23,673 bases of DNA from Streptomyces rubradiris (GTDB lineage: Bacteria; Actinomycetota; Actinomycetes; Streptomycetales; Streptomycetaceae): contig NZ_BNEA01000002.1 in assembly GCF_016860525.1 (NCBI RefSeq), forward strand, positions 1-23,673. The letters are read 5' to 3'. Below are positions 1 through 23,673 of the stretch, piece after piece. Position numbers and translations under genes: made by a program. Numbering within the stretch: position 1 is the stretch's first letter; the number at the start of each line of letters is the position of its first letter. The notes under the pieces were generated by a model. The model saw nothing but the letters and a program-made list of their open reading frames with translations, was not told the origin of the DNA and did not search any database.

Positions 1-3000
1 GGTGCGCCTTGCGATCGGGGATCGTGGCGATGTCGAAGGCGGGCAGCAGGTGCACGTACGACGTCCCCGACTCGGCCAGCTTCCTCAGGTGCCGGGAACC
101 GTCGCTGTCCTTGTCGGTGAACGCCAGGTAGGTGCCCGGGTGCCTGGAGGTGCGGTCCTCGACGGAGAAGTCCCTGATGTGCAGCTCCTGGATCCGCGCG
201 TCCCGCAGCGGCACGGCCTTCGGCTTGCGCAGGTCCGACCAGCCCGCCGGGGCCAGGGACCTGTCGTCCAGGTCCACGACCAGGCTGCGCTCGGAGTCCG
301 CGGTGAGCGCGAGCGAGTACGGGTCGGTGACCTTGTTGGTGACCACCTTGCCCGCGCTGGGCGCCCACACCTTCACCACGTACCGGTACGGCTTGCCCTT
401 CCAGGACGCCGGCCCCGTCACGGACCACACGCCCGTGGAGTCGTCCCGCGCATGCTCCTGACCGAACCGTCCAGCTCCAGCGACACGCTCCGCGCCGTCG
501 GGGCCCACACGGACAGCGTGGGCCTTCCGTCGCGGAACACCGGTCCGAGGTGCGCCTTCGTGGCACCGGGGTAGAGGTCGTCCAGCACACCGGCGGTCTG
601 CACACGGTCGCCGCCAGCACGGCCCCGTTCTCCGCCCGCTGCGAGACGACCAGCTGCCCCTTGACCGCTTCACGCACCCGGTCCCGGTCGCGCGGGTCCA
701 CGGACCAGGCGGCGTAGTCCTTCAGGTGGGGGAACTTCGCCTTCTGCGCGTCGGTCAGGGCCGTCTTCCCCAGCCTGATCCAGCGCTCGTCGTCGCTGCT
801 CAGGGTCCCGTCCCGGACGGTCAGGGAGCCGTCGAGGGAGTACAGCAACTGGGTGGAGGCGGCACCCGCCACGCCGTTCCAGGCGACGGTGTCCCGGTCG
901 ATCCACACCGCCTCGGCGGTGGTGAGGTCGAGCGCGGCGGCGGTGCCGGCCGGCTGCGGCAGCAGGTGCTTCTCCTGGCCGCTCACCAGCCACACCTCGT
1001 GGCCGTCGGCCGTGAGGTCAAGGCTCCGGTCGGCCGGGAGGTCCTTCTCGTCGCCCTTGTGGATGATGTAGCCGAGACTGGTGGCACCCGCGGTGAGGGG
1101 CACCTCGAAGACCGCGCCATAGGCATCAGTCTTCACCGGCTCCAGCGGCCGCGACCAGTCGGTGGGGTGCGCGGCGCCCGTCCAGACGTGCAGGCCCCAG
1201 CCGTCGTAGTCCCCGTCGGCGCGGTGGTAGTGCAGGACGGCCTTGGCCGGGTCCTGGGCGGGGTGGTCCGGCCGCTCGGTGCGCACGTCGGCCTCGCCCT
1301 GTTCGATCCACACCTCGCCGGTGCGGGTGACGTCGATGAACCGGTCGGCGGAGATGTCCTTGTTCCCGTCCTTGTCGACGACCAGGAACCCGACGTTCGA
1401 GGCGCCCGGCCGGAGCTTGACGTAGGCGAAGGCGCCGTAGGCGTCCCGGCCGATGAAGGGGTGGCCGGCCGGCCAGGTGGTGGCCTCGCCGTCGGCCAGG
1501 TCGCCCCAGGCGTACAGGCCCCAGCCGTCGTAGTCGCCGTCGGGGCGCTTGTAGTGCACGATCGCGTAGTCCCGGGAGGAGGCCCTGGGGACCTCGGGCG
1601 CGGGCGGGGTGCCGGTGGTGCTGCTCGCCGTGGCGCTCGCGGTGTGCCCGGCCGAGTCGATGACGACGGCCTTGTAGCGCAGGGCGGTCCCGGCGGGCAC
1701 GTCGGTGCCGAGGGTCTGGGTGACCTGGTAGGGGGCGTGGTCGGCGGAGCCGAGCGTCCGCCACTTCCCGTTGCCGACCTGGGCGGCGAAGACGACCCGG
1801 TTGAGCTGTCCCCCATCGACGTCGGCCCTGAGGTCGACCGTTCCGGTGGCTCCGGCGGCCGGGGCGGTCAGGGTGATCGTGGGCTCGGCGGTGGGCTCGG
1901 CGAGCTTTCCGGCCGCCTTGTAGACGACGGCGGACCCGGCCGGGACGGTGACGGTGAGCCGCCGGTCGCCGTCGGAGCGCACCGGGCCGGTGGCGCCGTG
2001 GATCCCCCGGTACGTCATGTCCGGCGACCCGGTCGCGAAGGTCGCCGTCCGCTCCGAGCCGGCGTTGTTGAAGGCCACGACGTACTCCTGGCCGGACGCG
2101 GCGTCGGTGCGGGTGAAGGCGTAGATCCCGGGGCCGTCGGCCGCGTACCGCTCGGTCTGCACCCCGTCCGTCAGGGCCGGCTCGGCCTTGCGGAGCCGGG
2201 CCAGGTCCGCGATCCGCCGGTACAGCGGGGCGCCGGTGTCGTAGGCGGCGCTCGCGTGGGTGCGGTCGGTGCCGATCTCGTCGTCGTCCAGGTAGTCGGC
2301 GACCTTGGAGGCGAACATGGTCTGGCGGGCGTCCTTGTCGCCGCCGGAGCCGGTGAAGCCCTGCTCGTCGCCGTAGTAGACGACCGGGTTGCCCCGGCTG
2401 AGGAACATCAGCTCGTTGGCGAGCCGGTCCTTGGCCAGGATCTCGGCGTCGGTCGCGTTCGGGTTGTCCTGCTTCAGGAAGGTTCCGATGCGGCCCATGT
2501 CGTGGTTGCCGAGGAAGGTGACCTGTTCGTAGGCGTTGGCCTTGTCAGTCGTGTACTTGTGGTCGGCGCCGAAGACGGCCGCCAGCTTCCGGGCGCTGCC
2601 GCCCTGGGAGGCGTAGGCGCGGGCCGCGTCCTGGAAGGGGAAGTCGAGGGTGGCGTCGAGCCGGCCCCGGGTGACGTACGGGGCGGTGACGGCGGGGTCG
2701 GCGGAGTAGACCTCGCCGAACATGAAGAAGTCCTTCCGGCCGCGCTCGGCCGCGTAGCGGTCCAGCGCGGTGGCCCACTGGGTCCAGAACTCCATGTTCA
2801 CGTGCTTGACGGTGTCGATCCGGAAGCCGTCGACGGCGAAGTCCCGCACCCAGCGCTGGTAGATCCGCTCCATCCCGCGGACGACCTCGGGGCGCTCGGT
2901 CCACAGGTCGTCCAGGCCGGAGAAGTCGCCGTAGGTGGTGGACTCGCCGGTGTACGTGGAGTCGCCCCGGTTGTGGTACATCGCCGGGTCGTTGAGCCAG

Positions 3001-3761
3001 GCCGGGACCTTGGCCTGGCTGGTCGCCCTCGGGGTGTGGGGAAAGGAGCCGGTGCCGACGGGCGGGAACTTCCCCGTGCCGTCGGCGTGGTCGGCGTCGT
3101 CGAAGGGGCGGCCGTCCTCGGTGAGGTAGGGGAAGGCGCCCTTGGAGAGGTAGTCGTAGGTCTTCTCGTCGTAGTCGACGACGTCGGCGGTGTGGTTGGT
3201 GATGACGTCGAAGAAGACCTTCATGCCCTTGGCGTGGGCCTTGGAGATGAGGTTCTTCAGGTCCTGGTCGGTGCCGAAGTGGGGGTCGACCTGGGTGAAG
3301 TCGGTGATCCAGTACCCGTGGTAGCCCGCCGAAGCGTTGCTTCCGGTGCCCTGCACGGGGCGGTTCTTGAAGATCGGCGCCAGCCAGATGGCCGTGGTGC
3401 CGAGCCCCTTGATGTAGTCCAGCCGCTGCGTCAGGCCCTTGAGGTCGCCGCCCTGGTAGAAGCCCTTGTCCGTGGGGTCGTAGCCGGTGCGCAGCCGCGA
3501 ACCGGTCAGACCACCGCGGTCGTTGGACGGGTCACCGTTGGCGAAGCGGTCCGGCAGGACGAAGTAGAACTGCTCGCGGGTGGCGTCGTGCCGGGCGGGT
3601 GCGGCGGCCAGCTTCGCGTCCGAGGGAGGCGCGGGCGGGCCGGCCGCGTGGGCGGCCAGGGGCGACAGCAGCGTGGCGGCGAGGGCCGCGGCGCTGACGG
3701 CCGCGGCACCGGCGCGCCGCCGGGTACGGCGCCTGGGCGGCGCCGGCCATCGTGGTGTCAC
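1..3761 (-). CDS. Secreted bifunctional alpha-amylase/pullulanase (amylopullulanase), 3' end cut by the window edge, two apparent frameshifts
   Basis: Extracellular enzyme expected to cut alpha-1,4 and alpha-1,6 links in starch and pullulan. The GTG start at 3761 follows GGAG and is 11 bases past the amylase stop. Residues 1-34 look like an arginine-rich signal peptide ending LAAHA. The first GH13 domain has YFVLPDRFANGD near residue 48, DVITNH, nucleophile D316 in GFRID, acid/base E350 in FGEVYS and D421 in GNHD. An Ig-like segment follows (about 635-725), then two CBM41-like starch-binding modules (about 730-830 and 840-927, both with a GDYDGWGL motif), a pullulanase N2-like region, a CBM48-like module (LSVWAPTARSVSLELDG) and the start of the pullulanase GH13 domain (IQELHIRDFS). 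The frame is open from 3761 to about 605. Single-base deletions near 605 and 449, absent from the mirror copy, shift the frame and are probably sequence errors. About 1,250 residues are visible; relatives run to about 1,800. Confidence 0.9.
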   Translation of the reverse strand, partial: MTPRWPAPPRRRTRRRAGAAAVSAAALAATLLSPLAAHAAGPPAPPSDAKLAAAPARHDATREQFYFVLPDRFANGDPSNDRGGLTGSRLRTGYDPTDKGFYQGGDLKGLTQRLDYIKGLGTTAIWLAPIFKNRPVQGTGSNASAGYHGYWITDFTQVDPHFGTDQDLKNLISKAHAKGMKVFFDVITNHTADVVDYDEKTYDYLSKGAFPYLTEDGRPFDDADHADGTGKFPPVGTGSFPHTPRATSQAKVPAWLNDPAMYHNRGDSTYTGESTTYGDFSGLDDLWTERPEVVRGMERIYQRWVRDFAVDGFRIDTVKHVNMEFWTQWATALDRYAAERGRKDFFMFGEVYSADPAVTAPYVTRGRLDATLDFPFQDAARAYASQGGSARKLAAVFGADHKYTTDKANAYEQVTFLGNHDMGRIGTFLKQDNPNATDAEILAKDRLANELMFLSRGNPVVYYGDEQGFTGSGGDKDARQTMFASKVADYLDDDEIGTDRTHASAAYDTGAPLYRRIADLARLRKAEPALTDGVQTERYAADGPGIYAFTRTDAASGQEYVVAFNNAGSERTATFATGSPDMTYRGIHGATGPVRSDGDRRLTVTVPAGSAVVYKAAGKLAEPTAEPTITLTAPAAGATGTVDLRADVDGGQLNRVVFAAQVGNGKWRTLGSADHAPYQVTQTLGTDVPAGTALRYKAVVIDSAGHTASATASSTTGTPPAPEVPRASSRDYAIVHYKRPDGDYDGWGLYAWGDLADGEATTWPAGHPFIGRDAYGAFAYVKLRPGASNVGFLVVDKDGNKDISADRFIDVTRTGEVWIEQGEADVRTERPDHPAQDPAKAVLHYHRADGDYDGWGLHVWTGAAHPTDWSRPLEPVKTDAYGAVFEVPLTAGATSLGYIIHKGDEKDLPADRSLDLTADGHEVWLVSGQEKHLLPQPAGTAAALDLTTAEAVWIDRDTVAWNGVAGAASTQLLYSLDGSLTVRDGTLSSDDERWIRLGKTALTDAQKAKFPHLKDYAAWSVDPRDRDRVREAVKGQLVVSQRAENGAVLAATVCRPPVCWTTSTPVPRRRTSDRCSATEGPRCPCGPRRRGACRWSWTVRSGACAGRLHGRVVRDGAGVLEGQAVPVRGEGVGAQRGQGGHQQGHRPVLARAHRGLRAQPGRGPGRQVPGPGGLVGPAQAEGRAAAGRADPGAAHQGLLRRGPHLQAPGHLPGVHRQGQRRFPAPEEAGRVGDVVRAPAARLRHRHDPRSQGA

Positions 3762-3772
3762 TGGGTGGCTCC

Positions 3773-5149
3773 TCAGCAGTCCGGCTTGCCGGCGTACAGC
3801 GCCAGGGCGGTGTCGGGGGCCAGGGTGGCGGTGAACTGACCGCCGGCATTCACCGTCACCGGCCTGTTGCCCTGCACGTCGCAGTAGGTCCCGGCGGGCA
3901 GGGAGGTCTGGTAGGTGCGGGTCATGCTGCCCGGCTCGTGGTTGATGGCCACGTATCCCTTGGCGCCCCGGCCGAAGGCGACCCAGTCGTTGCCGTTGTC
4001 CCACCAGTTCGTGACCGCCTGGCCCCGGGTCGCGTTGCGGAAGGCGACCATGGACTTGATCTCCGGCCAGGCATGCTGGCACTTCCAGCCGCTTTGCCAA
4101 CAGGCGTCCACCCGGCCGCCGTTCGGCGGGCCGGCGTCGGCGTCCGACCACTCGTAGCCGGAGTTGACGTCGGGGGCGCCGTACGGCCAGGCCAGCATGA
4201 AGACGTTGGCCAGGGTGTAGTTCGCGCCGCTCTTGTAGGAGAGCGTGCTGCCGTTGCGCTCGGTGTCGTGGTTGTCCACGAAGACGCCCGCGGCCGAGCC
4301 GCTCAGGTAGCCCCAGCCCTCGCCGTAGTTCTTCAGGTACGCCAGCTTCTCGGCGGTGAAGACCCGCTTGAGGTCGTAGGCGTAGCGGAACTCCTGGACG
4401 TCTCCGTTGCCGGTGTACTCGGAGGGCTGGACGGCCTCGCCCGCGCCGTGGATGACCTCCTGCTTCCAGTGGACCGACGGGTTGGTCAGCCGGCTCTTGA
4501 TGTCCGCCAGGTCCGCGGCCGGTATGTGCTTGGCCCCGTCGATCCGGAAGCCGTCCACGCCCAGGCTCAGCAGGTCGTTCAGATAACCGGCGATCGCCTT
4601 GCGGACGTACTCCTCGCCGGTGTCCAGGTCGGCCAGGCCGAGGAGTTCGCAGTGCTGGACGTTCCAGCGGTCGGAGTAGTCCGAGATCTGGGCGGTGCAG
4701 TCGTCGAAGTCGTAGGACGAGTACAGGCCCGGGTAGGCGTACTTGGTGTACGACGAGCCGCCGGTGCCGGTGCCCGAGCCGGCCGACATGTGGTTGACGA
4801 CGGCGTCGGCGACGACCTTCACCCCGGCCGCGTGGCAGGTGTCCACCATGTTCCGGAACGCCGTGCGGTCGCCGAGCCGGCCGGCGATCTTGTACGACAC
4901 CGGCTGGTACGACGTCCACCACTGGGCGCCCTGTATGTGCTCGGCGGGCGGGGAGACCTGGACGTATCCGTAGCCGGCGGGGCCGAGGGCGGTGGTGCAC
5001 TCCCTGGCCACGGAGTCGTAGTTCCACTCGAAGAGGACGGCGGTGACGTCCTTGGTGCCGGGCGGGGCGGCCTCTGCGGTAGTCGGGGTCATGCCCATCA
5101 GGGCGGCGGCGGTGAGGGCGACCGCCGTGGGGAGTGCGCTGCGTGCCAT
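3773..5149 (-). CDS. Secreted alpha-amylase (GH13), 458 aa
   Basis: Endo-acting alpha-1,4-glucanase that would release maltodextrins from starch outside the cell. The ATG at 5149 follows AAGGAA. Residues 1-28 form a short signal peptide with an AEA cleavage site. Actinobacterial (animal-like) amylase motifs are present: [13 protein letters not shown] (40-52), DAVVNH (115-120), nucleophile D204 in [10 protein letters not shown], acid/base E231 in WKQEVI and D295 in VDNHD. Six cysteines are visible in the mature part up to residue 357, plus C423 and C458. At 458 residues it ends with the C-terminal beta domain and has no CBM20 starch-binding module, unlike longer streptomycete amylases. It has its own promoter region with a palindromic operator (5196-5215) and probably shares a transcript with the amylopullulanase 11 bases downstream. 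A longer reading frame from 5215 is rejected because it would start in the operator and lose the signal peptide. Confidence 0.95.
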
Positions 5150-5195
5150 GTGGGGTTCCTTCGACGGTGAAGGGGGTGGGGGCCGCTGAAGCGGT

Positions 5196-5215
5196 TTGCT
5201 GAAACTTTTCAGCAA
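5196..5215 (-). promoter_or_regulatory. Probable MalR (Reg1-type) operator upstream of alpha-amylase
   Basis: TTGCTGAAACTTTTCAGCAA is a near-perfect palindrome, with only the central two bases unmatched, 46 bases upstream of the amylase ATG. It is joined to a second perfect palindrome, GCAAGCTTGC (5212-5221). Streptomycete amylase promoters controlled by MalR/Reg1 are known to carry CTTGCAG-like repeats. The TTGC/GCAA half-sites match those between malR and malE in this window, so shared control by MalR is inferred. Confidence 0.7.
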
Positions 5216-5239
5216 GCTTGCGGTGACGCAGATGGTAAA

Positions 5240-5266
5240 GGCCCGCTGCCCGGAAGGCAGCGGGCC
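5240..5266 (-). terminator. Rho-independent-like terminator after aglA
   Basis: A perfect 11-bp stem (GGCCCGCTGCC at 5240-5250, GGCAGCGGGCC at 5256-5266) has a 5-base loop. In the direction of aglA transcription it is followed by TTTACC, a short T run. It lies 63 bases past the aglA stop and upstream of the amylase operator, so it separates the mal-agl transcript from the amylase transcript. Confidence 0.8.
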
Positions 5267-5329
5267 GGAGTGAAGGTGATGCGGGAAAGTTCTCCGACGG
5301 AGCGTCAGGGGGCCGCTCCGGTGCGGGCG

Positions 5330-7015
5330 TCAGCGCTCCGCGGACCACCAGACCGTGGTGTCGGCGGGCACCTTCGTCTCGCCGTCCGCCTCGGTGACCT
5401 CGCCGCTGGCGAGCAGCACCCGGCCGTGGGACGGCATCGTCACGGACTCGCCGGTGGTGTTGGCCACGCACACGAAGTCGCCCCGCCGGAAGGCCAGGAC
5501 GCCCTCCGGCGCGCGCAGCCACTCCACCGACTCGCCCGCGCCCAGGTCCGGCCGCTCCCGGCGGACCCGCAGCGCCGACCGGTACAGCTCCAGCGTGGAG
5601 CCGGGGGTCCCGGTCTGCGCCTCCACGCTCAGCTCGGCCCAGGCCGGCGGCTGGGGCAGCCAGCTTCCGCCGTCGCCGAAGCCGTAGGAGGAGCCCGTAC
5701 GGGTCCACGGGATCGGCACCCGGCAGCCGTCGCGGAAGCCGTCCTGGCCCGCGCCGCGGAAGTACGCCGGGTCCTGGCGGACCTCGTCGGGCAGGTCCAC
5801 GACGTCCGGCAGGCCCAGTTCCTCGCCCTGGTAGAGGTAGGCCGAGCCGGGCAGGGCGAGCATCAGCAGGGTGGCGGCGCGGGCCCGGCGCAGGCCCAGC
5901 TCGCGGTCGCCGGCCGTGCGGATCTGGGTGCCGAGGCCGGGCGGGTTGGCGAAGCGGGTGGCGTGCCGGGTGACGTCGTGGTTGGACAGCACCCAGGTGG
6001 CGGGGGCGCCGACGGGGCGCATCGCGTCCAGGGTGCGGTCGATGACCGTGCGCAGCTCCTCGGCGTCCCAGGCCGTGCCCAGGTACTGGAAGTTGAACGC
6101 CTGGTGGAGTTCGTCGGGGCGCACGTAGTTCGCGGTGCGCTCGACGGTCGGGGTCCACGCCTCGGCCACGAAGATGCGGTCACCCGAGTACTCGTCGAGG
6201 ATGCGGCGCCACTGGCGGTAGATGGCGTGCACGCCGTCCTGGTCGAAGAACGGCATGACGTCATTGCCCAGCAGCTTGACCTGGTCGTGAGTGCCGAGGT
6301 CGGGCAGGCCCGCCGCCTTGACCAGGCCGTGGGCGACGTCGATGCGGAAGCCGTCCACGCCCATGTCCAGCCAGAAGCGCAGGATCGAGCGGAACTCGTC
6401 GCCGACGGCCGGGTGTTCCCAGTTGAAGTCGGGCTGCTCGGGGGCGAACAGGTGCAGGTACCACTCGCCGGGGGTGCCGTCCGGCTCGGTCACCCGGGTC
6501 CAGGCCGGTCCGCCGAAGATGGACTCCCAGTCGTTGGGCGGCAGTTCGCCGTTGTCTCCCTTGCCGGGGCGGAAGTGGTAGCGCTCGCGCAGCGGGGAGC
6601 CGGGACCCTCGGCGAGGGCGCGCTTGAACCACTCGTGCCGGTCGGAGGAGTGGTTGGGGACCAGGTCCACGATGACGCGCAGGCCGTGCGCGTGGGCGTC
6701 GCGGATCAGCGCGTCGGCGTCCAGCAGGGAGCCGAACATCGGGTCGACGGCGCGGTAGTCGGCGACGTCGTAGCCGGCGTCGGCCTGCGGGGAGGCGTAG
6801 AAGGGGCTGAGCCACACCGCGTCCACGCCGAGGTCGCGCAGGTACGGCAGGCGGGAGCGTACGCCCTCCAGGTCGCCCATGCCGTCGCCGTTGCCGTCGG
6901 CGAAGCTGCGCGGGTAGACCTGGTAGATGACCGCGTCCCGCCACCAGTCGCGGCGGTCGGCGACGGTGACGGCGCTGGAGTGGCGGGCCGGTGCGGCGGA
7001 GTGCTGCTGGCTCAT
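5330..7015 (-). CDS. aglA: Intracellular alpha-glucosidase (GH13, oligo-1,6-/alpha-1,4-glucosidase family), AglA-like, 561 aa
   Basis: Hydrolyses imported maltose and maltodextrins to glucose in the cytoplasm; no signal peptide is present. GH13 motifs in order: [14 protein letters not shown] (27-40), DLVPNHSS (117-124), QPDFNWE (194-200, typical of alpha-glucosidases), nucleophile D226 in DGFRID, acid/base E285 in VAEAW and D347 in SNHD. The ATG at 7015 is preceded by AAGGA at good spacing. The in-frame ATG at 7042 lacks a ribosome binding site, and the still longer open frame into malG is a by-product of GC-rich DNA. It follows malG in the same direction with a strong hairpin between them. 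In S. coelicolor an aglA gene is known downstream of malEFG, which supports the name. Substrate preference cannot be read from sequence. Confidence 0.92.
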   Translation of the reverse strand: MSQQHSAAPARHSSAVTVADRRDWWRDAVIYQVYPRSFADGNGDGMGDLEGVRSRLPYLRDLGVDAVWLSPFYASPQADAGYDVADYRAVDPMFGSLLDADALIRDAHAHGLRVIVDLVPNHSSDRHEWFKRALAEGPGSPLRERYHFRPGKGDNGELPPNDWESIFGGPAWTRVTEPDGTPGEWYLHLFAPEQPDFNWEHPAVGDEFRSILRFWLDMGVDGFRIDVAHGLVKAAGLPDLGTHDQVKLLGNDVMPFFDQDGVHAIYRQWRRILDEYSGDRIFVAEAWTPTVERTANYVRPDELHQAFNFQYLGTAWDAEELRTVIDRTLDAMRPVGAPATWVLSNHDVTRHATRFANPPGLGTQIRTAGDRELGLRRARAATLLMLALPGSAYLYQGEELGLPDVVDLPDEVRQDPAYFRGAGQDGFRDGCRVPIPWTRTGSSYGFGDGGSWLPQPPAWAELSVEAQTGTPGSTLELYRSALRVRRERPDLGAGESVEWLRAPEGVLAFRRGDFVCVANTTGESVTMPSHGRVLLASGEVTEADGETKVPADTTVWWSAER

Positions 7016-7072
7016 GGCGTCCTTGATACGTAACTGGTGCATGGTGGGCGGTCGTTGATGGCCGGAGTACGA

Positions 7073-7119
7073 GGCGGGCCGCGGTGGCGGCGGGGTCGGT
7101 TGGGCCACCGCGGCCCGCC
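7073..7119 (-). terminator. Strong hairpin between malG and aglA (attenuator or partial terminator)
   Basis: A perfect 16-bp stem (GGCGGGCCGCGGTGGC at 7073-7088 and its complement at 7104-7119) encloses a 15-base loop, 15 bases past the malG stop. No T tract follows on the minus strand, so full termination is doubtful. mRNA stabilisation of malEFG or attenuation of aglA is more likely. Confidence 0.65.
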
Positions 7120-7134
7120 CGGCCGGTGCGGGCG

Positions 7135-8040
7135 TCAGCCCTTGGTGCCGCCGGCGGTGAGGCCGGTGACCAGGTTCTTCTGCACGAGGTAGAAGAACAC
7201 CGTCACCGGTATCGCGATCAGCACCGCGGTGGCGGCCATGTAGTTCCACTGGGCGTCGTGCTCGCTGACGAAGGTCTGCAGGCCGACGGCGAAGGTGTAC
7301 TTGGAGTCGTCCAGCAGGAAGGTCGTCGCGAAGGCGACCTCGCCGACGGCGGTGATGAAGGTGTAGAACGCGGCGACGGCCAGCCCCGGGCGGGCCAGCG
7401 GCAGGATCAGCCGGAAGAAGGTGCCGAAGGGGCTGAGCCCGTCCACCCGCCCGGCCTCGTCGATCTCGAACGGGATGGTGTCGAAGTAGCCCTTCAGCAG
7501 CCAGGCGCTGTACGGCACGGCGGTGGAGCAGTTGATGGCGATCAGCGCCCAGTAGGTGTCGATGAGGCCGAGCTCGCTGAAGATCTCGTACATCGGCACG
7601 ATCAGGATGGCGATCGGGAAGGCCTGGGTGAGCAGCAGGACCCACATCAGCTGCTTGTAGCCGGGAAAGCGCATCCGGGAGACCGCGTAGCCGGTGGTGG
7701 CGGCGACGAGGACACCGATCACGGTGGTGCCGAGGGCCACGATCAGCGTCGACTTGAACCAGTCGAGGAAGCCGGTGTGCTGGAGCACGAAGCTGTAGTT
7801 GGAGAAGGTCAGCTTGCCCGCGATGCCGCCCGGGTGGAGGTAGTCGTCCTTGTCCGGGCCGAGGGACAGGTAGCACAGCCAGGCCACCGGGGCGAGGGCG
7901 ATCAGGCTGGCCAGGGCGAGGCCGCCGTGCAGCAGGGCGGTGCCGAGCGGTCCGCGCTCGCCGCGCCGGCGGGTGCGGCGGACGGGTACGGCGGCGGGGG
8001 CCGGCGCGGTCTTCGTGGTGTCCAGGGTCGTGGTGCTCAT
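7135..8040 (-). CDS. malG: Maltodextrin ABC transporter permease MalG, 301 aa
   Basis: Inner-membrane subunit of the maltose/maltodextrin importer, pairing with MalF. Hydrophobic segments lie near residues 38-60, 97-120, 130-150, 163-183, 218-240 and 268-287. The binding-protein-dependent transport signature (EAA loop, [10 protein letters not shown]...LILP, about 192-213) contacts the ATPase. The arginine-rich N-terminus (21-29) is cytoplasmic. The ATG at 8040 has GGAG about 9 bases upstream and lies 19 bases after the malF stop. An ATG at 8079 would overlap malF and has no clear ribosome binding site. No ATPase gene is present; in streptomycetes the shared ATPase MsiK, encoded elsewhere, usually powers such systems. 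Confidence 0.94.
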   Translation of the reverse strand: MSTTTLDTTKTAPAPAAVPVRRTRRRGERGPLGTALLHGGLALASLIALAPVAWLCYLSLGPDKDDYLHPGGIAGKLTFSNYSFVLQHTGFLDWFKSTLIVALGTTVIGVLVAATTGYAVSRMRFPGYKQLMWVLLLTQAFPIAILIVPMYEIFSELGLIDTYWALIAINCSTAVPYSAWLLKGYFDTIPFEIDEAGRVDGLSPFGTFFRLILPLARPGLAVAAFYTFITAVGEVAFATTFLLDDSKYTFAVGLQTFVSEHDAQWNYMAATAVLIAIPVTVFFYLVQKNLVTGLTAGGTKG

Positions 8041-8059
8041 GGCGGCGGCTCCTGCGGCG

Positions 8060-9064
8060 TCAGACGGCGAGTTGGTCATTGCGCTTCAGCCAGCGGAAGT
8101 AGAAGGAGGTGAAGACGGTGAGGATCGACAGCAGCAGCACGCCGTAGGCGGCGGACTGGGCGAAGTCGCGCGGCTGCTGGCCGAAGCCCAGCTGGTAGGC
8201 CCAGGTGACGAGGATCTGGGCGTCCGGGGCGGAGTTCTTGCCGAACAGCAGGAAGATGATGACGAACTGGTTGAAGGTCCAGATGACGCCGAGCAGGACC
8301 ACGGTGGAGCTGACCGCGCGCAGTCCGGGCAAGGTGACGTGGCGGAAGCGCTGCCAGGCGCTCGCGCCGTCCATCTCGGCGGCCTCGTAGAGCGTGGAGT
8401 CGATGGACTGCAGCCCGCCGAGCAGCGAGAGCATCATGAACGGCACACCGCACCAGGTGTTCACCATGATCGCGGCGAACCGCTGCCAGAAGGTGTCCTC
8501 CAGCCAGGCCGGCTGGGGCAGGTGGAGGGCGCCGAGGAGCTGGTTGAGCGCGCCGGAGTCGGCGAGCATGATCCGCCAGGAGAAGACGGTGACGAAGGTC
8601 GGCACGGCCCAGGGCAGGACGAGCAGCAGCCGGTAGACGGTGCGGCCGCGCAGCTTCTGGTGCAGCATGAGCGCGAGGCCGAGCCCGAGGGCGTAGTGCA
8701 GGGCGACGCAGGCGGCCGTCCAGAAGACGGTCCACAGGAAGTGCGACCAGAACCGGTCGTAGGCCGTCGGGCCGAACAGGATGTCCTGGTAGTTGTCCAG
8801 GCCGATGAACTCGTAGGTGGCGTCGATGTGGTTGACGCCGATCGTCCGCGCCGAGTTGAGGCTGTTGGCGTCGGTGAGGGTGAGGTAGAAGCCGCGGGCC
8901 AGCGGGTAGCCGACGAGGACGCCGAGCACGATGACCACCGGGGCGATCATCGCGTAGGCGTACCAGTACTTCTGGAGGCCGTTCTTGACGCGCTGCCCCA
9001 GCCCGGGACGAGGCGCGCGGTCACCGCGGCGCTTGCCGGTGGCGCGGTCGATGGCGACTGTCAT
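8060..9064 (-). CDS. malF: Maltodextrin ABC transporter permease MalF, 334 aa
   Basis: Membrane permease subunit of the maltodextrin importer. About six transmembrane segments are visible (near 36-60, 107-134, 145-167, 198-219, 251-275 and 303-323). The EAA loop YEAAEMDGASAWQRFRHVTLP (226-246) docks the ATPase. It lacks the large periplasmic P2 loop and extra N-terminal helices of E. coli MalF, as is normal for Gram-positive MalF proteins. The ATG at 9064 is preceded by AAGG. It follows malE after 103 bases that contain a long hairpin, and is almost directly followed by malG, consistent with one operon. Confidence 0.94.
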   Translation of the reverse strand: MTVAIDRATGKRRGDRAPRPGLGQRVKNGLQKYWYAYAMIAPVVIVLGVLVGYPLARGFYLTLTDANSLNSARTIGVNHIDATYEFIGLDNYQDILFGPTAYDRFWSHFLWTVFWTAACVALHYALGLGLALMLHQKLRGRTVYRLLLVLPWAVPTFVTVFSWRIMLADSGALNQLLGALHLPQPAWLEDTFWQRFAAIMVNTWCGVPFMMLSLLGGLQSIDSTLYEAAEMDGASAWQRFRHVTLPGLRAVSSTVVLLGVIWTFNQFVIIFLLFGKNSAPDAQILVTWAYQLGFGQQPRDFAQSAAYGVLLLSILTVFTSFYFRWLKRNDQLAV

Positions 9065-9110
9065 GGTTCGACACCTTCATTGGATCAGGGGGGCGGGCCG
9101 GGCACAGGGC

Positions 9111-9162
9111 GGTGGCCGCCGGTCTCCTCCCCCGCGCGCGGCGGGAGCGGCCGACGGCCACC
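9111..9162 (-). other. Long hairpin between malE and malF
   Basis: GGTGGCCG (9111-9118) pairs with CGGCCACC (9155-9162), and the interior can pair further (CTCCC with GGGAG) to form a long imperfect GC-rich stem. It begins 5 bases past the malE stop. Such structures after a binding-protein gene commonly stabilise the upstream mRNA so that more binding protein than permease is made; that role is inferred here. Confidence 0.6.
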
Positions 9163-9167
9163 CGGGC

Positions 9168-11819: not shown

Positions 11820-11854
11820 GCCGCGGGACCCGGGCTCGCCCCGGCCGCGGGGCC

Positions 11855-11876
11855 CGCGCCCGGCCAGAAGGTGCGC
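11855..11876. other. Spacer and fold-back junction of the inverted repeat
   Basis: These 22 bases separate the two arms. They are very GC-rich, and their ends (GCGCC at 11856-11860, GGTGCGC at 11870-11876) are themselves nearly complementary, so the unpaired loop may be only about 10 bases. The junction lies 35 bases past the malR stop, where a natural GC-rich hairpin or terminator could have promoted fold-back synthesis or reading of the second strand. No recombination site, insertion-sequence end or telomere-like sequence is visible. Confidence 0.85.
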
Positions 11877-11911
11877 GGCCCCGCGGCCGGGGCGAGCCCG
11901 GGTCCCGCGGC

Positions 11912-12953: not shown

Positions 12954-13298
12954 GCCACTGGACTGTACCGGTCGGCTCCGCCCTTGCACACCGGCCGGAC
13001 GCCGGGCGCGGACGGCCGGACGCCCCGCAGTGGGTTGCTGCCTCATCGCGGCTCCCTCGAATCATGGTGGCAAGAGCTTGCAGAGTCTTGCACAAGTGTC
13101 CAGCGGCCGCCCGAACGGTTACGGCCGGGTAACCATCGTGTTCCCTTGCACTTTTTTTCTGCAAGGTCTTTCGCAGCGCTTACATCGCTGTTACGTTCCC
13201 TGTCGCCCGGCCGCGGCAACGGCGCAGTCGGCAAGTCGCAAGGGGCGGACCTGCACCGCCCCCTGTACCACTCGGGCTTTAACCCTCAAGGAGAACTC
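12954..13298. promoter_or_regulatory. Mirror copy of the malR-malE control region
   Basis: Reverse complement of 10443-10786 with one extra base in a G run near 13111. It has the same inverted repeat (CCTTGCA 13144-13150, TGCAAGG 13160-13166), the half-site cluster at 13071-13097 and AAGGAG before the malE ATG. No gene is visible. Confidence 0.7.
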
Positions 13299-14569: not shown

Positions 14570-14574
14570 GCCCG

Positions 14575-14626
14575 GGTGGCCGTCGGCCGCTCCCGCCGCG
14601 CGCGGGGGAGGAGACCGGCGGCCACC
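14575..14626 (+). other. Mirror copy of the malE-malF hairpin
   Basis: Identical to the hairpin at 9111-9162 in reverse complement, between the malE stop and the malF start of this arm. Confidence 0.55.
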
Positions 14627-14672
14627 GCCCTGTGCCCGGCCCGCCCCCCTGATCCAATGAAGGTGTCGAACC

Positions 14673-15676
14673 ATGACAGTCGCCATCGACCGCGCCACCG
14701 GCAAGCGCCGCGGTGACCGCGCGCCTCGTCCCGGGCTGGGGCAGCGCGTCAAGAACGGCCTCCAGAAGTACTGGTACGCCTACGCGATGATCGCCCCGGT
14801 GGTCATCGTGCTCGGCGTCCTCGTCGGCTACCGCTGGCCCGCGGCTTCTACCTCACCCTCACCGACGCCAACAGCCTCAACTCGGCGCGGACGATCGGCG
14901 TCAACCACATCGACGCCACCTACGAGTTCATCGGCCTGGACAACTACCAGGACATCCTGTTCGGCCCGACGGCCTACGACCGGTTCTGGTCGCACTTCCT
15001 GTGGACCGTCTTCTGGACGGCCGCCTGCGTCGCCCTGCACTACGCCCTCGGGCTCGGCCTCGCGCTCCTGCTGCACCAGAAGCTGCGCGGCCGCACCGTC
15101 TACCGGCTGCTGCTCGTCCTGCCCTGGGCCGTGCCGACCTTCGTCACCGTCTTCTCCTGGCGGATCATGCTCGCCGACTCCGGCGCGCTCAACCAGCTCC
15201 TCGGCGCCCTCCACCTGCCCCAGCCGGCCTGGCTGGAGGACACCTTCTGGCAGCGGTTCGCCGCGATCATGGTGAACACCTGGTGCGGTGTGCCGTTCAT
15301 GATGCTCTCGCTGCTCGGCGGGCTGCAGTCCATCGACTCCACGCTCTACGAGGCCGCCGAGATGGACGGCGCGAGCGCCTGGCAGCGCTTCCGCCACGTC
15401 ACCTTGCCCGGACTGCGCGCGGTCAGCTCCACCGTGGTCCTGCTCGGCGTCATCTGGACCTTCAACCAGTTCGTCATCATCTTCCTGCTGTTCGGCAAGA
15501 ACTCCGCCCCGGACGCCCAGATCCTCGTCACCTGGGCCTACCAGCTGGGCTTCGGCCAGCAGCCGCGCGACTTCGCCCAGTCCGCCGCCTACGGCGTGCT
15601 GCTGCTGTCGATCCTCACCGTCTTCACCTCCTTCTACTTCCGCTGGCTGAAGCGCAATGACCAACTCGCCGTCTGA
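14673..15676 (+). pseudogene. malF: Mirror copy of malF, one-base deletion
   Basis: Copy of the MalF permease gene. A single C is missing near 14831 (GGCTACCGC versus GGCTACCCGC), which shifts the frame after residue 52, within the first membrane segment. The correct frame can be read again from about 14832 to the stop at 15676. One substitution changes the Met of ALMLHQ to Leu (ALLLHQ). The intact 334-residue version is at 8060-9064. Confidence 0.9.
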
Positions 15677-15695
15677 CGCCGCAGGAGCCGCCGCC

Positions 15696-16601
15696 ATGAG
15701 CACCACGACCCTGGACACCACGAAGACCGCGCCGGCCCCCGCCGCCGTACCCGTCCGCCGCACCCGCCGGCGCGGCGAGCGCGGACCGCTCGGCACCGCC
15801 CTGCTGCACGGCGGCCTCGCCCTGGCCAGCCTGATCGCCCTCGCCCCGGTGGCCTGGCTGTGCTACCTGTCCCTCGGCCCGGACAAGGACGACTACCTCC
15901 ACCCGGGCGGCATCGCGGGCAAGCTGACCTTCTCCAACTACAGCTTCGTGCTCCAGCACACCGGCTTCCTCGACTGGTTCAAGTCGACGCTGATCGTGGC
16001 CCCTCGGCACCACCGTGATCGGTGTCCTCGTCGCCGCCACCACCGGCTACGCGGTCTCCCGGATGCGCTTTCCCGGCTACAAGCAGCTGATGTGGGTCCT
16101 GCTGCTCACCCAGGCCTTCCCGATCGCCATCTGATCGTGCCGATGTACGAGATCTTCAGCGAGCTCGGCCTCATCGACACCTACTGGGCGCTGATCGCCA
16201 TCAACTGCTCCACCGCCGTGCCGTACAGCGCCTGGCTGCTGAAGGGCTACTTCGACACCATCCCGTTCGAGATCGACGAGGCCGGGCGGGTGGACGGGCT
16301 CAGCCCCTTCGGCACCTTCTTCCGGCTGATCCTGCCGCTGGCCCGCCCGGGGCTGGCCGTCGCCGCGTTCTACACCTTCATCACCGCCGTCGGCGAGGTC
16401 GCCTTCGCGACGACCTTCCTGCTGGACGACTCCAAGTACACCTTCGCCGTCGGCCTGCAGACCTTCGTCAGCGAGCACGACGCCCAGTGGAACTACATGG
16501 CCGCCACCGCGGTGCTGATCGCGATACCGGTGACGGTGTTCTTCTACCTCGTGCAGAAGAACCTGGTCACCGGCCTCACCGCCGGCGGCACCAAGGGCTG
16601 A
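15696..16601 (+). CDS. malG: Mirror copy of malG, open but with a garbled internal segment
   Basis: The copy keeps a 301-codon frame with the same start (ATG 15696 after GCAGGAG) and stop. An extra C near 16002 and a missing C near 16133 put about 44 codons (roughly residues 103-146) out of frame, replacing transmembrane segments 2 and 3 with an arginine/histidine/proline-rich stretch. The EAA loop and the remaining segments match the left copy. As written, the protein could not fold as a permease; this is very probably two sequence errors that happen to cancel. Confidence 0.88.
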
Positions 16602-16616
16602 CGCCCGCACCGGCCG

Positions 16617-16663
16617 GGCGGGCCGCGGTGGCCCAACCGACCCCGCCGCCACCGCGGCCCGCC
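16617..16663 (+). terminator. Mirror copy of the malG-aglA hairpin
   Basis: The same perfect 16-bp stem as at 7073-7119 (16617-16632 pairing with 16648-16663), 15 bases past the malG stop of this arm. Confidence 0.6.
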
Positions 16664-16720
16664 TCGTACTCCGGCCATCAACGACCGCCCACCATGCACC
16701 AGTTACGTATCAAGGACGCC

Positions 16721-18400
16721 ATGAGCCAGCAGCACTCCGCCGCACCGGCCCGCCACTCCAGCGCCGTCACCGTCGCCGACCGCCGCGACTGGTGGCGGGA
16801 CGCGGTCATCTACCAGGTCTACCCGCGCAGCTTCGCCGACGGCAACGGCGACGGCATGGGCGACCTGGAGGGCGTACGCTCCCGCCTGCCGTACCTGCGC
16901 GACCTCGGCGTGGACGCGGTGTGGCTCAGCCCCTTCTACGCCTCCCCGCAGGCCGACGCCGGCTACGACGTCGCCGACTACCGCGCCGTCGACCGATGTT
17001 CGGCTCCCTGCTGGACGCCGACGCGCTGATCCGCGACGCCCACGCGCACGGCCTGCGCGTCATCGTGGACCTGGTCCCCAACCACTCCTCCGACCGGCAC
17101 GAGTGGTTCAAGCGCGCCCTCGCCGAGGGTCCCGGCTCCCCGCTGCGCGAGCGCTACCACTTCCGCCCCGGCAAGGGAGACAACGGCGAACTGCCGCCCA
17201 ACGACTGGGAGTCCATCTTCGGCGGACCGGCCTGGACCCGGGTGACCGAGCCGGACGGCACCCCCGGCGAGTGGTACCTGCACCTGTTCGCCCCCGAGCA
17301 GCCCGACTTCAACTGGGAACACCCGGCCGTCGGCGACGAGTTCCGCTCGATCCTGCGCTTCTGGCTGGACATGGGCGTGGACGGCTTCCGCATCGACGTC
17401 GCCCACGGCCTGGTCAAGGCGGCGGGCCTGCCCGACCTCGGCACTCACGACCAGGTCAAGCTGCTGGGCAATGACGTCATGCCGTTCTTCGACCAGGACG
17501 GCGTGCACGCCATCTACCGCCAGTGGCGCCGCATCCTCGACGAGTACTCGGGTGACCGCATCTTCGTGGCCGAGGCGTGGACCCGACCGTCGAGCGCACC
17601 GCGAACTACGTGCGCCCCGACGAACTCCACCAGGCGTTCAACTTCCAGTACCTGGGCACGGCCTGGGACGCCGAGGAGCTGCGCACGGTCATCGACCGCA
17701 CCCTGGACGCGATGCGCCCGTCGGCGCCCCCGCCACCTGGGTGCTGTCCAACCACGACGTCACCCGGCACGCCACCCGCTTCGCCAACCCGCCCGGCCTC
17801 GGCACCCAGATCCGCACGGCCGGCGACCGCGAGCTGGGCCTGCGCCGGGCCCGCGCCGCCACCCTGCTGATGCTCGCCTGCCCGGCTCGGCCTACCTCTA
17901 CCAGGGCGAGGAACTGGGCCTGCCGGACGTCGTGGACCTGCCCGACGAGGTCCGCCAGGACCCGGCGTACTTCCGCGGCGCGGGCCAGGACGGCTTCCGC
18001 GACGGCTGCCGGGTGCCGATCCGTGGACCAGTACGGGCTCCTCCTACGGCTTCGGCGACGGCGGAAGCTGGCTGCCCCAGCCGCCGGCCTGGGCCGAGCT
18101 GAGCGTGGAGGCGCAGACCGGGACCCCCGGCTCCACGCTGGAGGCTGTAACGGTCGGCGCTGCGGGTCGAAGGGACGCGCAGGACCTGGGCGCGGGAGAT
18201 CGGTGGAGCGGCTGCGGCGCGGACGAGGGCGTCCGTCCTTCCGGCGGGGCGACTTCGTTCTGCGGGCCAACACCCCGGCGAAAGTGCACGTGGACGATGC
18301 CGTCCCACGAGGGTGCTGCTCTCCAGCGGCGAGGTCCGATGCGGACGGCGAGACGAAGGGTGCCCGCCGACACCACGGTGTGTGGTCCGCGGAGCGCTGA
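16721..18400 (+). pseudogene. aglA: Mirror copy of aglA, multiply frameshifted
   Basis: Copy of the alpha-glucosidase gene. Single C losses near 16993, 17582, 17719, 17877 and 18021 break the frame. From about 18143 to 18380 the copy also has many substitutions and indels and is barely alignable at the protein level. Motifs DLVPNHSS, DGFRID and VAEAW are still readable in one frame. The intact 561-residue version is at 5330-7015. Confidence 0.88.
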
Positions 18401-18457
18401 CGCCGCACGGAGGGCCCCCTGACGCTCCTTCTGAAACTTTACCGCACACCTTAACTC

Positions 18458-18484
18458 CGGCCGTGCCTTCAGGGCAGCCGGGCC
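18458..18484 (+). terminator. Mirror copy of the aglA terminator, degraded
   Basis: Corresponds to 5240-5266, but the 11-bp stem is interrupted here (CCGTGCC facing GGCAGCCGGG) by mismatches and gaps. It is followed by the same TTTACC. The damage matches the error-rich stretch around it. Confidence 0.5.
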
Positions 18485-18507
18485 TTTACCATCTGCGTCA
18501 CCGAAGC

Positions 18508-18526
18508 TTGCTGAAAGTTTCAGCAA
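18508..18526 (+). promoter_or_regulatory. Mirror copy of the amylase operator
   Basis: TTGCTGAAAGTTTCAGCAA is one base shorter than the left-arm version (5196-5215) and therefore reads as a perfect odd-length palindrome. The length difference lies in the central A/T run. Confidence 0.6.
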
Positions 18527-18571
18527 ACCGCTTCAGCGGCCCCCACCCCTTCACCGTCGAAGGAACCCCAC

Positions 18572-19940
18572 ATGGCACGCAGCGCACTCCCCACGGCGGT
18601 CGCCTCACCGCCGCCGCCCTGATGGGGCATGACCCCGACTACCGCAGAGGCCGCCCCGCCCGGAACCAAGGACGTCACCGCCGTCCTCTTCGAGTGGAAC
18701 TACGACTCCGTGGCCAGGGAGTGCACCACCGCCCTCGGCCCCGCCGGCTACGGATACGTCCAGGTCTCCCGCCCGCCGAGCACATACAGGGCGCCCAGTG
18801 GTGGACGTCGTACCAGCCGGTGTCGTACAAGATCGCCGGCCGGCTCGGCGACCGCACGGCGTTCCGGAACATGGTGGACACCTGCCACGCGCGCCGGGGT
18901 GAAGGTCGTCGCCGACGCCGTCGTCAACCACATGTCGGCGGCTCGGGCACCGGCACCGGCGGCTCGTCGTACACCAAGTACGCCTACCCGGGCTGTACTC
19001 GTCCTACGACTTCGACGACTGCACCGCCCAGATCTCGGACTACTCCGACCGCTGGAACGTCCAGCACTGCGAACTCCTCGGCCTGGCCGACCTGGACACC
19101 GGCGAGGAGTACGTCCGCAAGGCGATCGCCGGTTATCTGACCGACCTGCTGAGCCTGGGCGTGGACGGCTTCCGGATCGACGGGGCAAGCACATACCGGC
19201 CGCGGACCTGGCGGACATCAAGAGCCGGCTGACCAACCCGTCGGTCCACTGGAAGCAGGAGGTCATCCACGGCGCGGGCGAGGCCGTCCAGCCCTCGAGT
19301 ACACCGGCAACGGAGACGTCCAGGAGTTCGCTACGCCTACGACCTCAAGCGTGGTCTTCACCGCCGAGAAGCTGGCGTACCTGAAGAACTACGGCGAGGG
19401 CTGGGGCTACCTGAGCGGCTCGGCCGCGGGCGTCTTCGTGGACAACCACGACACCGAGCGCAACGGCAGCACGCTCTCCTACAAGAGCGGCGCGAACTAC
19501 ACCCTGGCCAACGTCTTCATGCTGGCCTGGCCGTACGGCGCCCCCGACGTCAACTCCGGCTACGAGTGGTCGGACGCCGACGCCGGCCCGCCGAACGGCG
19601 GCCGGGTGGACGCCTGTGGCAAAGCGGCTGGAAGTGCCAGCATGCCTGGCCGGAGATCAAGTCCATGGTCGCCTTCCGCAACGCGACCCGGGGCCAGGCG
19701 GTCACGAACTGGTGGGACAACGGCAACGACTGGGTCGCCTTCCGGGGCGCCAAGGGATACGTGGCCATCAACCACGAGCCGGGCAGCATGACCCGCACCT
19801 ACCAGACCTCCCTGCCCGCCGGGACCTACTGCGACGTGCAGGGCAACAGGCCGGTGACGGTGAATGCCGGCGGTCAGTTCACCGCCACCCTGGCCCCCGA
19901 CACCGCCCTGGCGCTGTACGCCGGCAAGCCGGACTGCTGA
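18572..19940 (+). pseudogene. Mirror copy of alpha-amylase, multiply frameshifted
   Basis: Copy of the secreted amylase gene, with the same AAGGAA site before the ATG at 18572 and the stop at 19938-19940. About twelve indels relative to the left copy are visible, including near 18605, 18626, 18769, 18891, 18942, 18994, 19185, 19295, 19331, 19351, 19617 and a 3-base gap near 19746. The net loss is eight bases. Segments around residues 60-125 and the last third can be read in pieces. The intact 458-residue version is at 3773-5149. Confidence 0.88.
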
Positions 19941-19951
19941 GGAGCCACCCA

Positions 19952-22900
19952 GTGACACCACGATGGCCGGCGCCGCCCAGGCGCCGTACCCGGCGGCGCG
20001 CCGGTGCCGCGGCCGTCAGCGCCGCGGCCCTCGCCGCCACGCTGCTGTCGCCCCTGGCCGCCCACGCGGCCGGCCCGCCCGCGCCTCCCTCGGACGCGAA
20101 GCTGGCCGCCGCACCCGCCCGGCACGACGCCACCCGCGAGCAGTTCTACTTCGTCCTGCCGGACCGCTTCGCCAACGGTGACCCGTCCAACGACCGCGGT
20201 GGTCTGACCGGTTCGCGGCTGCGCACCGGCTACGACCCCACGGACAAGGGCTTCTACCAGGGCGGCGACCTCAAGGGCCTGACGCAGCGGCTGGACTACA
20301 TCAAGGGGCTCGGCACCACGGCCATCTGGCTGGCGCCGATCTTCAAGAACCGCCCCGTGCAGGGCACCGGAAGCAACGCTTCGGCGGGCTACCACGGGTA
20401 CTGGATCACCGACTTCACCCAGGTCGACCCCCACTTCGGCACCGACCAGGACCTGAAGAACCTCATCTCCAAGGCCCACGCCAAGGGCATGAAGGTCTTC
20501 TTCGACGTCATCACCAACCACACCGCCGACGTCGTCGACTACGACGAGAAGACCTACGACTACCTCTCCAAGGGCGCCTTCCCCTACCTCACCGAGGACG
20601 GCCGCCCCTTCGACGACGCCGACCACGCCGACGGCACGGGGAAGTTCCCGCCCGTCGGCACCGGCTCCTTTCCCCACACCCCGAGGGCGACCAGCCAGGC
20701 CAAGGTCCCGGCCTGGCTCAACGACCCGGCGATGTACCACAACCGGGGCGACTCCACGTACACCGGCGAGTCCACCACCTACGGCGACTTCTCCGGCCTG
20801 GACGACCTGTGGACCGAGCGCCCCGAGGTCGTCCGCGGGATGGAGCGGATCTACCAGCGCTGGGTGCGGGACTTCGCCGTCGACGGCTTCCGGATCGACA
20901 CCGTCAAGCACGTGAACATGGAGTTCTGGACCCAGTGGGCCACCGCGCTGGACCGCTACGCGGCCGAGCGCGGCCGGAAGGACTTCTTCATGTTCGGCGA
21001 GGTCTACTCCGCCGACCCCGCCGTCACCGCCCCGTACGTCACCCGGGGCCGGCTCGACGCCACCCTCGACTTCCCCTTCCAGGACGCGGCCCGCGCCTAC
21101 GCCTCCCAGGGCGGCAGCGCCCGGAAGCTGGCGGCCGTCTTCGGCGCCGACCACAAGTACACGACTGACAAGGCCAACGCCTACGAACAGGTCACCTTCC
21201 TCGGCAACCACGACATGGGCCGCATCGGAACCTTCCTGAAGCAGGACAACCCGAACGCGACCGACGCCGAGATCCTGGCCAAGGACCGGCTCGCCAACGA
21301 GCTGATGTTCCTCAGCCGGGGCAACCCGGTCGTCTACTACGGCGACGAGCAGGGCTTCACCGGCTCCGGCGGCGACAAGGACGCCCGCCAGACCATGTTC
21401 GCCTCCAAGGTCGCCGACTACCTGGACGACGACGAGATCGGCACCGACCGCACCCACGCGAGCGCCGCCTACGACACCGGCGCCCCGCTGTACCGGCGGA
21501 TCGCGGACCTGGCCCGGCTCCGCAAGGCCGAGCCGGCCCTGACGGGGTGCAGACCGAGCGGTACGCGGCCGACGGCCCGGGATCTACGCCTTCACCCGCA
21601 CCGACGCCGCGTCCGGCCAGGAGTACGTCGTGGCCTTCAACAACGCCGGCTCGGAGCGGACGGCGACCTTCGCGACCGGGTCGCCGGACATGACGTACCG
21701 GGGGATCCACGGCGCCACCGGCCCGGTGCGCTCCGACGGCGACCGGCGGCTCACCGTCACCGTCCCGGCCGGGTCCGCCGTCGTCTACAAGGCGGCCGGA
21801 AAGCTCGCCGAGCCCACCGCCGAGCCCACGATCACCCTGACCGCCCCGGCCGCCGGAGCCACCGGAACGGTCGACCTCAGGGCCGACGTCGATGGGGGAC
21901 AGCTCAACCGGGTCGTCTTCGCCGCCCAGGTCGGCAACGGGAAGTGGCGGACGCTCGGCTCCGCCGACCACGCCCCCTACCAGGTCACCCAGACCCTCGG
22001 CACCGACGTGCCCGCCGGGACCGCCCTGCGCTACAAGGCCGTCGTCATCGACTCGGCGGGCACACCGCGAGCGCCACGGCGAGCAGCACCACCGGCACCC
22101 CGCCCGCGCCCGAGGTCCCCAGGGCCTCCTGGGACTACGCGATCGTGCACTACAAGCGCCCCGACGGCGACTACGACGGCTGGGGCCTGTACGCCTGGGG
22201 CGACCTGGCCGACGGCGAGGCCACCACCTGGCCGGCCGGCCACCCCTTCATCGGCCGGGACGCCTACGGCGCCTTCGCCTACGTCAAGCTCCGGCCGGGC
22301 GCCTCGAACGTCGGGTTCCTGGTCGTCGACAAGGACGGGAACAAGGACATCTCCGCCGACCGGTTCATCGACGTCACCCGCACCGGCGAGGTGTGGATCG
22401 AACAGGGCGAGGCCGACGTGCGCACCGAGCGGCCGGACCACCCCGCCCAGGACCCGGCCAAGGCCGTCCTGCACTACCACCGCGCCGACGGGGACTACGA
22501 CGGCTGGGGCCTGCACGTCTGGACGGGCGCCGCGCACCCCACCGACTGGTCGCGGCCGCTGGAGCCGGTGAAGACTGATGCCTATGGCGCGGTCTTCGAG
22601 GTGCCCCTCACCGCGGGTGCCACCAGTCTCGGCTACATCATCCACAAGGGCGACGAGAAGGACCTCCCGGCCGACCGGAGCCTTGACCTCACGGCCGACG
22701 GCCACGAGGTGTGGCTGGTGAGCGGCCAGGAGAAGCACCTGCTGCCGCAGCCGGCCGGCACCGCCGCCGCGCTCGACCTCACCACCGCCGAGGCGGTGTG
22801 GATCGACCGGGACACCGTCGCCTGGAACGGCGTGGCGGGTGCCGCCTCCACCCAGTTGCTGTACTCCCTCGACGGCTCCCTGACCGTCCGGGACGGGACC

Positions 22901-23673
22901 CTGAGCAGCGACGACGAGCGCTGGATCAGGCTGGGGAAGACGGCCCTGACCGACGCGCAGAAGGCGAAGTTCCCCACCTGAAGGACTACGCCGCCTGGTC
23001 CGTGGACCCGCGCGACCGGGACCGGGTGCGTGAAGCGGTCAAGGGGCAGCTGGTCGTCTCGCAGCGGGCGGAGAACGGGGCCGTGCTGGCGGCGACCGGT
23101 GTGCAGACCGCCGGTGTGCTGGACGACCTCTACCCCGGTGCCACGAAGGCGCACCTCGGACGGTGTTCCGCGACGGAAGGCCCACGCTGTCCGTGTGGGC
23201 CCCGACGGCGCGGAGCGTGTCGCTGGAGCTGGACGGTTCGGTCAGGAGCATGCGGCGGGACGACTCCACGGGCGTGTGGTCCGTGACGGGGCCGGCGTCC
23301 TGGAAGGGCAAGCCGTACCGGTACGTGGTGAAGGTGTGGGCGCCCAGCGCGGGCAAGGTGGTCACCAACAAGGTCACCGACCCGTACTCGCTCGCGCTCA
23401 CCGCGGACTCCGAGCGCAGCCTGGTCGTGGACCTGGACGACAGGTCCCTGGCCCCGGCGGGCTGGTCGGACCTGCGCAAGCCGAAGGCCGTGCCGCTGCG
23501 GGACGCGCGGATCCAGGAGCTGCACATCAGGGACTTCTCCGTCGAGGACCGCACCTCCAGGCACCCGGGCACTACCTGGCGTTCACGACAAGGACAGCGA
23601 CGGTTCCCGGCACTGAGGAAGCTGGCCGAGTCGGTGGACGTCGTACGTGCACCTGCTGCCCGCCTTCGACATC
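19952..23673 (+). pseudogene. Mirror copy of the amylopullulanase, frameshifted and cut by the window edge
   Basis: Starts at the GTG at 19952 after GGAG, 11 bases past the amylase stop. The first GH13 domain is intact here, with nucleophile, acid/base and third Asp matching the left copy. A 4-base loss and a 1-base loss between 21541 and 21590 shift the frame until a further 1-base loss near 22058 restores it, garbling about 160 residues that cover the end of the amylase domain and the Ig-like segment. A 3-base gap near 22130 removes one codon net. Both CBM41-like modules then read normally until a G loss near 22976 creates a stop at 22981. Further shifts occur near 23160 and after 23565. 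At the two places where the left copy is broken (near 605 and 449) this copy is correct. Confidence 0.88.

Follow-up and report, generated by a model that had tools for sequence, protein, structure and literature searches.

A palindromic contig at the mal locus of Streptomyces rubradiris and its probable origin as a fold-back artefact

The mal locus and its palindromic contig

The window, that is, the whole stretch of 23,673 bases of Streptomyces rubradiris DNA analysed here (contig NZ_BNEA01000002.1), is an entire contig, C2, of an assembly that comprises 9,051,737 bases in 22 contigs (GCF_016860525.1). It holds a locus of the Streptomyces malEFG-malR type in two mirrored copies, or arms, which meet at a short apex (Table 1). 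The names malE, malF and malG come from NCBIfam matches that lie below the curated cut-offs, whereas the regulator is recognised by a profile match to the LacI family and is presumably malR. The outermost gene is cut by the end of the window and, in contig C1, a stop-to-stop frame of 1821 aa spans the point at which the cut falls. The regulator gene of arm A is frameshifted near the apex, with deviations at 11567, 11659 and 11670. Four genomes of relatives (G004, G005, G006 and G015) carry another malR-like gene (72% to the query) on the opposite strand, 6.5-8.7 kb away from the best match, and in two others (G002 and G017) such a pair is found on a different contig from the best match.

Table 1. 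Features of the window, in positions of contig C2; gene coordinates are those of arm A.
Feature	Position	Strand	Remarks
Arm A	1..11853	+	Native mal locus in a well-polished copy that corresponds to the right end of C15 (reverse complement)
Pullulanase/alpha-amylase-like open frame	1..3827	-	Cut by the window end; NCBIfam matches below cut-off (arm B copy)
Alpha-amylase-like gene, 458 aa	3776..5149	-	NCBIfam matches below curated cut-offs
Glycoside hydrolase, 561 aa	5333..7015	-	Alpha-glucosidase-type, a name we assume from general family knowledge; NCBIfam matches below cut-offs
MalG-like ABC permease, 314 aa	7138..8079	-	NCBIfam 163.7 bits, cut-off 261
MalF-like ABC permease, 334 aa	8063..9064	-	NCBIfam 150.3 bits, cut-off 392
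MalE-like solute-binding protein, 424 aa	9171..10442	-	NCBIfam 97.7 bits, cut-off 291
LacI-family regulator at the malR position	10694..11816	+	Profile match; open over 375 aa in C15
Apex	11854..11878		6-bp inverted repeat CCGCGC / GCGCGG; loop of 13 bases (14 in C15)
Arm B	11879..23673	-	Error-rich second copy of the same 11.8 kb
Noisy patch in arm B	about 18130..18530		C15-oriented positions 5200-5599, converted via the pair sums

Comparison of the window with its own reverse complement (blastn, minus strand) returned a single match, of positions 29-23673 to 23673-29, with 99.01% identity, 56 mismatches and 178 gap bases, a self-match far beyond chance; when the arms were aligned by MAFFT, 49 mismatches and 83 gap columns were counted. 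The centre of the palindrome is at 11865.5, so that the turn lies at the midpoint of the contig, and the palindrome takes up the contig except for 28 bases, reaching one end and stopping short of the other by that distance, as is expected for a hairpin-closed fragment that was read round. No unique flank on the palindrome was detected by self-blastn within C2, whereas a real duplication would be flanked on both sides. The near-perfect palindrome reported at 29..23673 by the initial annotation is thus borne out, as is the range that it gave for the sums of paired coordinates (23702-23741, to be compared with 23701-23741 in the arm alignment, the drift being due to indels). The 22-base loop that it placed at 11855-11876 is mostly unpaired in that register, but a one-base bulge at 11853, read by eye, lets the stem extend further, with CCGCGC (11854-11859) pairing with GCGCGG (11873-11878) and 13 bases left in the loop. 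The seven genes that it assigned to each arm in mirror order are not complete there, as the outermost one is cut at the window ends and no arm B protein is unchanged (see below).

Two unequal arms and one native locus

Both arms map to C15:5797090-5808967 on opposite strands, as the two halves of a fold-back would. Relative to C15, arm A carries 13 deviations over about 11.8 kb (5 deletions, 7 insertions and 1 substitution) and arm B carries 120 (51 deletions, 24 insertions and 45 substitutions), the corresponding blastn counts being 1 mismatch and 13 gaps for the former and 24 mismatches and 80 gaps for the latter. Indels account for 75 of the 120 deviations of arm B, and the coding signatures that a duplication would have kept are missing. 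As many as 68 of the 120 are crowded into the 400 bp of the noisy patch, an error of about 17%, which falls within the 11-38% cited for long reads in the available part of a study on palindromic PacBio reads (PMC6218980); beyond the patch only 47 deviations are spread over about 11 kb, so that arm B does not consist of raw sequence over its full length. A four-way comparison found no deviation common to arm B and C1 and 6 common to arm A and C1, all within the first kilobase, which means that C15 may be wrong there. An old, diverged duplication is rejected on account of the clustered and indel-rich differences between the arms.

The same asymmetry is seen at the protein level. With seven reference proteins (six taken from C15, where they are necessarily all present, and one, the pullulanase-like protein, taken from C1), five of the seven are unchanged in arm A and none is in arm B. 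When the 12-residue words of the six C15 proteins were searched in the best single stop-free frame, arm A contained all the words of five proteins and 77% of those of malR, and arm B contained 19-82%. In arm B, the open frame of malG still has its full length of 314 aa, but part of its interior is altered.

Outside C2, the locus is found at the ends of two large contigs. The right end of C1 (1,909,431 bases) corresponds to window positions 1-10236, with other sequence to its left, and the right end of C15 (5,808,967 bases) corresponds to window positions 11879-1 in reverse; C15 terminates exactly at window base 1, and in the other direction it crosses the apex and continues into other genomic sequence. 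The two contig ends dovetail over 10,242 columns (10.2 kb) with 99.5% identity and bring together one left and one right flank, so that C1 followed by C15 reversed makes up an ordinary stretch of DNA with a single mal locus. The 4.2-kb flank in C1 has a full-length match at one place only, the others being short and of at most 93% identity (40 of 1402 candidates scored), and the same holds for the 4.1-kb flank in C15 (40 of 1608 candidates scored). A 4-kb stretch of arm A, used as query, recovered full-length copies from C1, C15 and both C2 arms and from nowhere else among the candidates scored (40 of 1148), and of the 6 matches listed for a 132-bp query spanning the apex (candidates scored, 40 of 144) only that in C2 extended over the full length. 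As far as can be judged from the contigs, the native mal locus looks ordinary and single. Two further candidates were rejected, namely a real duplication elsewhere in the genome, since the only full-length copies among the candidates scored are those in C1, C15 and the C2 arms and C1 plus C15 amount to one locus, and the terminal inverted repeat of a linear chromosome, since the ends of C1 and C15 dovetail and their flanks differ.

The comparison with relatives covered the best 80 of 251 confirmed loci. The closest named loci at malG are those of Streptomyces achromogenes and S. eurythermus (98%), in a set from which records very near the window's own may be absent. Core and C15 flank occur together in 73 of the 80 loci and adjoin with a gap of at most 300 bp in 72 of these 73, the gap being 404 bp in the remaining one (L066). 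All three parts, C1 flank, core and C15 flank, are present in 52 loci and have this order in every one of them; the remaining 28, some of which are truncated by contig ends, lack a match on that strand for one or more of the parts. In many of the relatives' loci almost the entire core could be aligned, and no difference of the native locus from the known Streptomyces malEFG-malR arrangement was noticed. With megablast settings, no inverted self-match longer than 400 bp was present in any of these 80 loci. With more sensitive settings, 84-1038 bp of core sequence were matched on the opposite strand in 10 of the 80, which may represent a diverged, oppositely oriented paralogue nearby.

Other palindromic and redundant contigs

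A search for palindromes covered C2-C6, C8, C9, C11-C14, C16, C17 and C19-C22 as a whole and at least 20 kb from each end of C1, C7, C10, C15 and C18, and it uncovered two more palindromic contig ends. The first lies at an end of C5 (31691-43512, 98.25% identity; loci L040 and L041) and is a fold-back whose apex corresponds in the genome to a perfect 22-bp inverted repeat, the turn being exactly at the end of the 11-bp stem; C12 and C20 both cross this apex unbroken into the same other sequence. The other occupies the last 15.6 kb of the 147-kb contig C10 (131719-147358, 99.6% identity, centre at about 139541; locus L047), where the sequence is repetitive. No contig crossing the C10 apex was found in the assembly, and a search of 30 relatives for native sequence beyond it yielded nothing but short, weak matches; the lack of a crossing contig means that the C10 palindrome may have another cause, and it may be either an artefact or a true replicon end.

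Redundancy is found elsewhere in the assembly too. C4, C6, C9, C13, C19 and the first 26.6 kb of C16 are near-identical stretches of 26.6 kb (98.7-99.7%) with the same start, the first 10 kb of which correspond to the end of C8, and they are probably redundant contigs that were not collapsed. The ends of C14, C17, C18, C21 and the left end of C15 overlap as a chain. Besides the dnaA gene of C15, a second DnaA ATPase family match is located at C7:76026-76334; it is weaker but, at 46.7 bits, exceeds its cut-off.

Origin of the palindrome

The palindrome is almost certainly an artefact of some kind and is very probably absent from the genome proper. C2 is most likely a contig that goes back to a single fold-back molecule or read, or to very few of them, which is in keeping with the preference of the initial annotation for a fold-back long read or a misassembled contig and fits the ordinary copies in C1 and C15, the palindrome devoid of flanks, the single error-rich arm and the further palindromic contig ends. 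A piece of the single mal locus, about 11.85 kb in length, would have been read to its end and then back along the complementary strand. In the likeliest course, a broken 3' end would have snapped back on a short inverted repeat and been extended or sealed during DNA handling or library preparation; as an alternative, the read itself may have turned at such a broken end. The assembler would then have kept the palindromic read as a separate contig, and the retention of C2 may also have blocked the merging of C1 and C15 despite their overlap.

Since a short inverted repeat, immediately downstream of the malR-type gene, marks the turn, snap-back would be the likeliest physical cause. The turn is suggestively at an inverted repeat in C2 and clearly so in C5, and the 6-bp repeat of C2 weakly suggests the snap-back of a broken strand. 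Among 4000 random positions (stem ends within 2 bases, loops of 0-30 bases), 8.4% had a stem of at least 6 bp and 0.1% one of at least 11 bp, as at C5, the stem scored for C2 in this test being a different one of 6 bp with a 25-base loop; as stems of 6 bp are this common, the C2 apex by itself is weak evidence for snap-back. Moreover, snap-back on CCGCGC/GCGCGG predicts one base more than is present at the junction of the window, so that a one-base error must be assumed.

Artefacts of this type have been described for long-read sequencing. According to the available part of the report by Heinz, Meyerson and Li (2026; PMC12870357), in foldback reads the two halves map to one place but on opposite strands, the turn is at the midpoint with little or no sequence between the halves, and other data cross the site normally; C2 resembles them in all these respects, its turn being crossed without a breakpoint in C15 and in the 72 relatives' loci mentioned above, but it is known here as a contig and not as reads. 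In the same text, near-symmetric foldbacks are put at about 0.55-0.6% of the genomic reads from ONT, with library preparation named as their source, most foldbacks have little sequence between their halves, and PacBio HiFi data are said to contain virtually none (PMC12870357). Palindromic PacBio reads, produced by missed SMRTbell adaptors or by whole-genome amplification, share with C2 an inverted self-match of the whole sequence and an effect on the assembly, as far as the accessible portion of that study describes them (PMC6218980); a difference is that the insert at the C2 apex is genomic.

A pure misjoin, in which the assembler would have linked ordinary reads or contig ends and no palindromic molecule or read would have been involved, is an unlikely source of C2: many overlapping contigs were indeed left unmerged, and C15 and C2 have a common end base, but misjoins do not call for a turn on a 6-bp inverted repeat (C2) or at the end of an 11-bp one (C5). 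Still less probable is a real inverted duplication in some of the cells, in which a break near an inverted repeat would be followed by resection, by capping through a snap-back hairpin and by replication of the hairpin or fusion of sister ends. The turns on inverted repeats, certain in C5 and possible in C2, would agree with such a process, and end-to-end fusion of deleted chromosomes, which has reportedly been published for Streptomyces ambofaciens, was also counted in its favour. In E. coli, duplications of this kind are formed by hairpins at a 246-bp interrupted palindrome in the absence of SbcCD and RecA, and there too the duplication is centred by snap-back of an inverted repeat; however, that system, in the part of the source available, involves a 246-bp palindrome, a mutant and an origin-proximal arm (PMC3315005), whereas C2 has a 6-bp stem, sbcD is present as an open frame of 397 aa (C1:847375) and the arm is origin-distal as judged by dnaA. 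Indeed, dnaA is located at C15:4134791 and the apex at about C15:5797100, with the duplicated arm extending outward (C15:5797111-5808967), so that dnaA is on the non-duplicated side and the arm, if oriC is assumed to lie by dnaA, is origin-distal and not origin-proximal; an origin-distal hairpin-capped end in E. coli is said, in the same partial source, not to replicate into an inverted duplication (PMC3315005).

Further points against an event in the cell are that a palindrome with unique flanks is present in no contig (the junction, among the matches listed, being in C2 only) and that all seven arm B proteins are altered. It seems just as improbable that the palindromes of C2, C5 and C10 are real hairpin-capped ends or unstable inverted duplications that originated by snap-back in the mycelium, and not by library chemistry. 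It is hardly credible that the mal locus is duplicated in inverted form in a stable and inherited way: contig C2 itself, and nothing else, speaks for this, whereas in C1 and C15 the locus is present once, between a single left and a single right flank, the relatives' loci compared above are devoid of long inverted self-matches under megablast settings, and arm B has the error profile and the broken frames already described. The fallback proposed by the initial annotation, an inverted duplication of a complete maltose regulon, is left without support.

With the fold-back artefact as the preferred reading, the palindrome has no significance for the biology of the organism, the mal locus of which looks ordinary. 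Its meaning is a minor one of data quality: besides one contig that is itself a palindrome, the assembly has two contig ends of this type and several redundant contigs, and the broken gene copies that all these add could pass for gene duplication. If it were true that the fold-backs arose in the cell, they would bear on the formation of inverted duplications in linear actinobacterial chromosomes.
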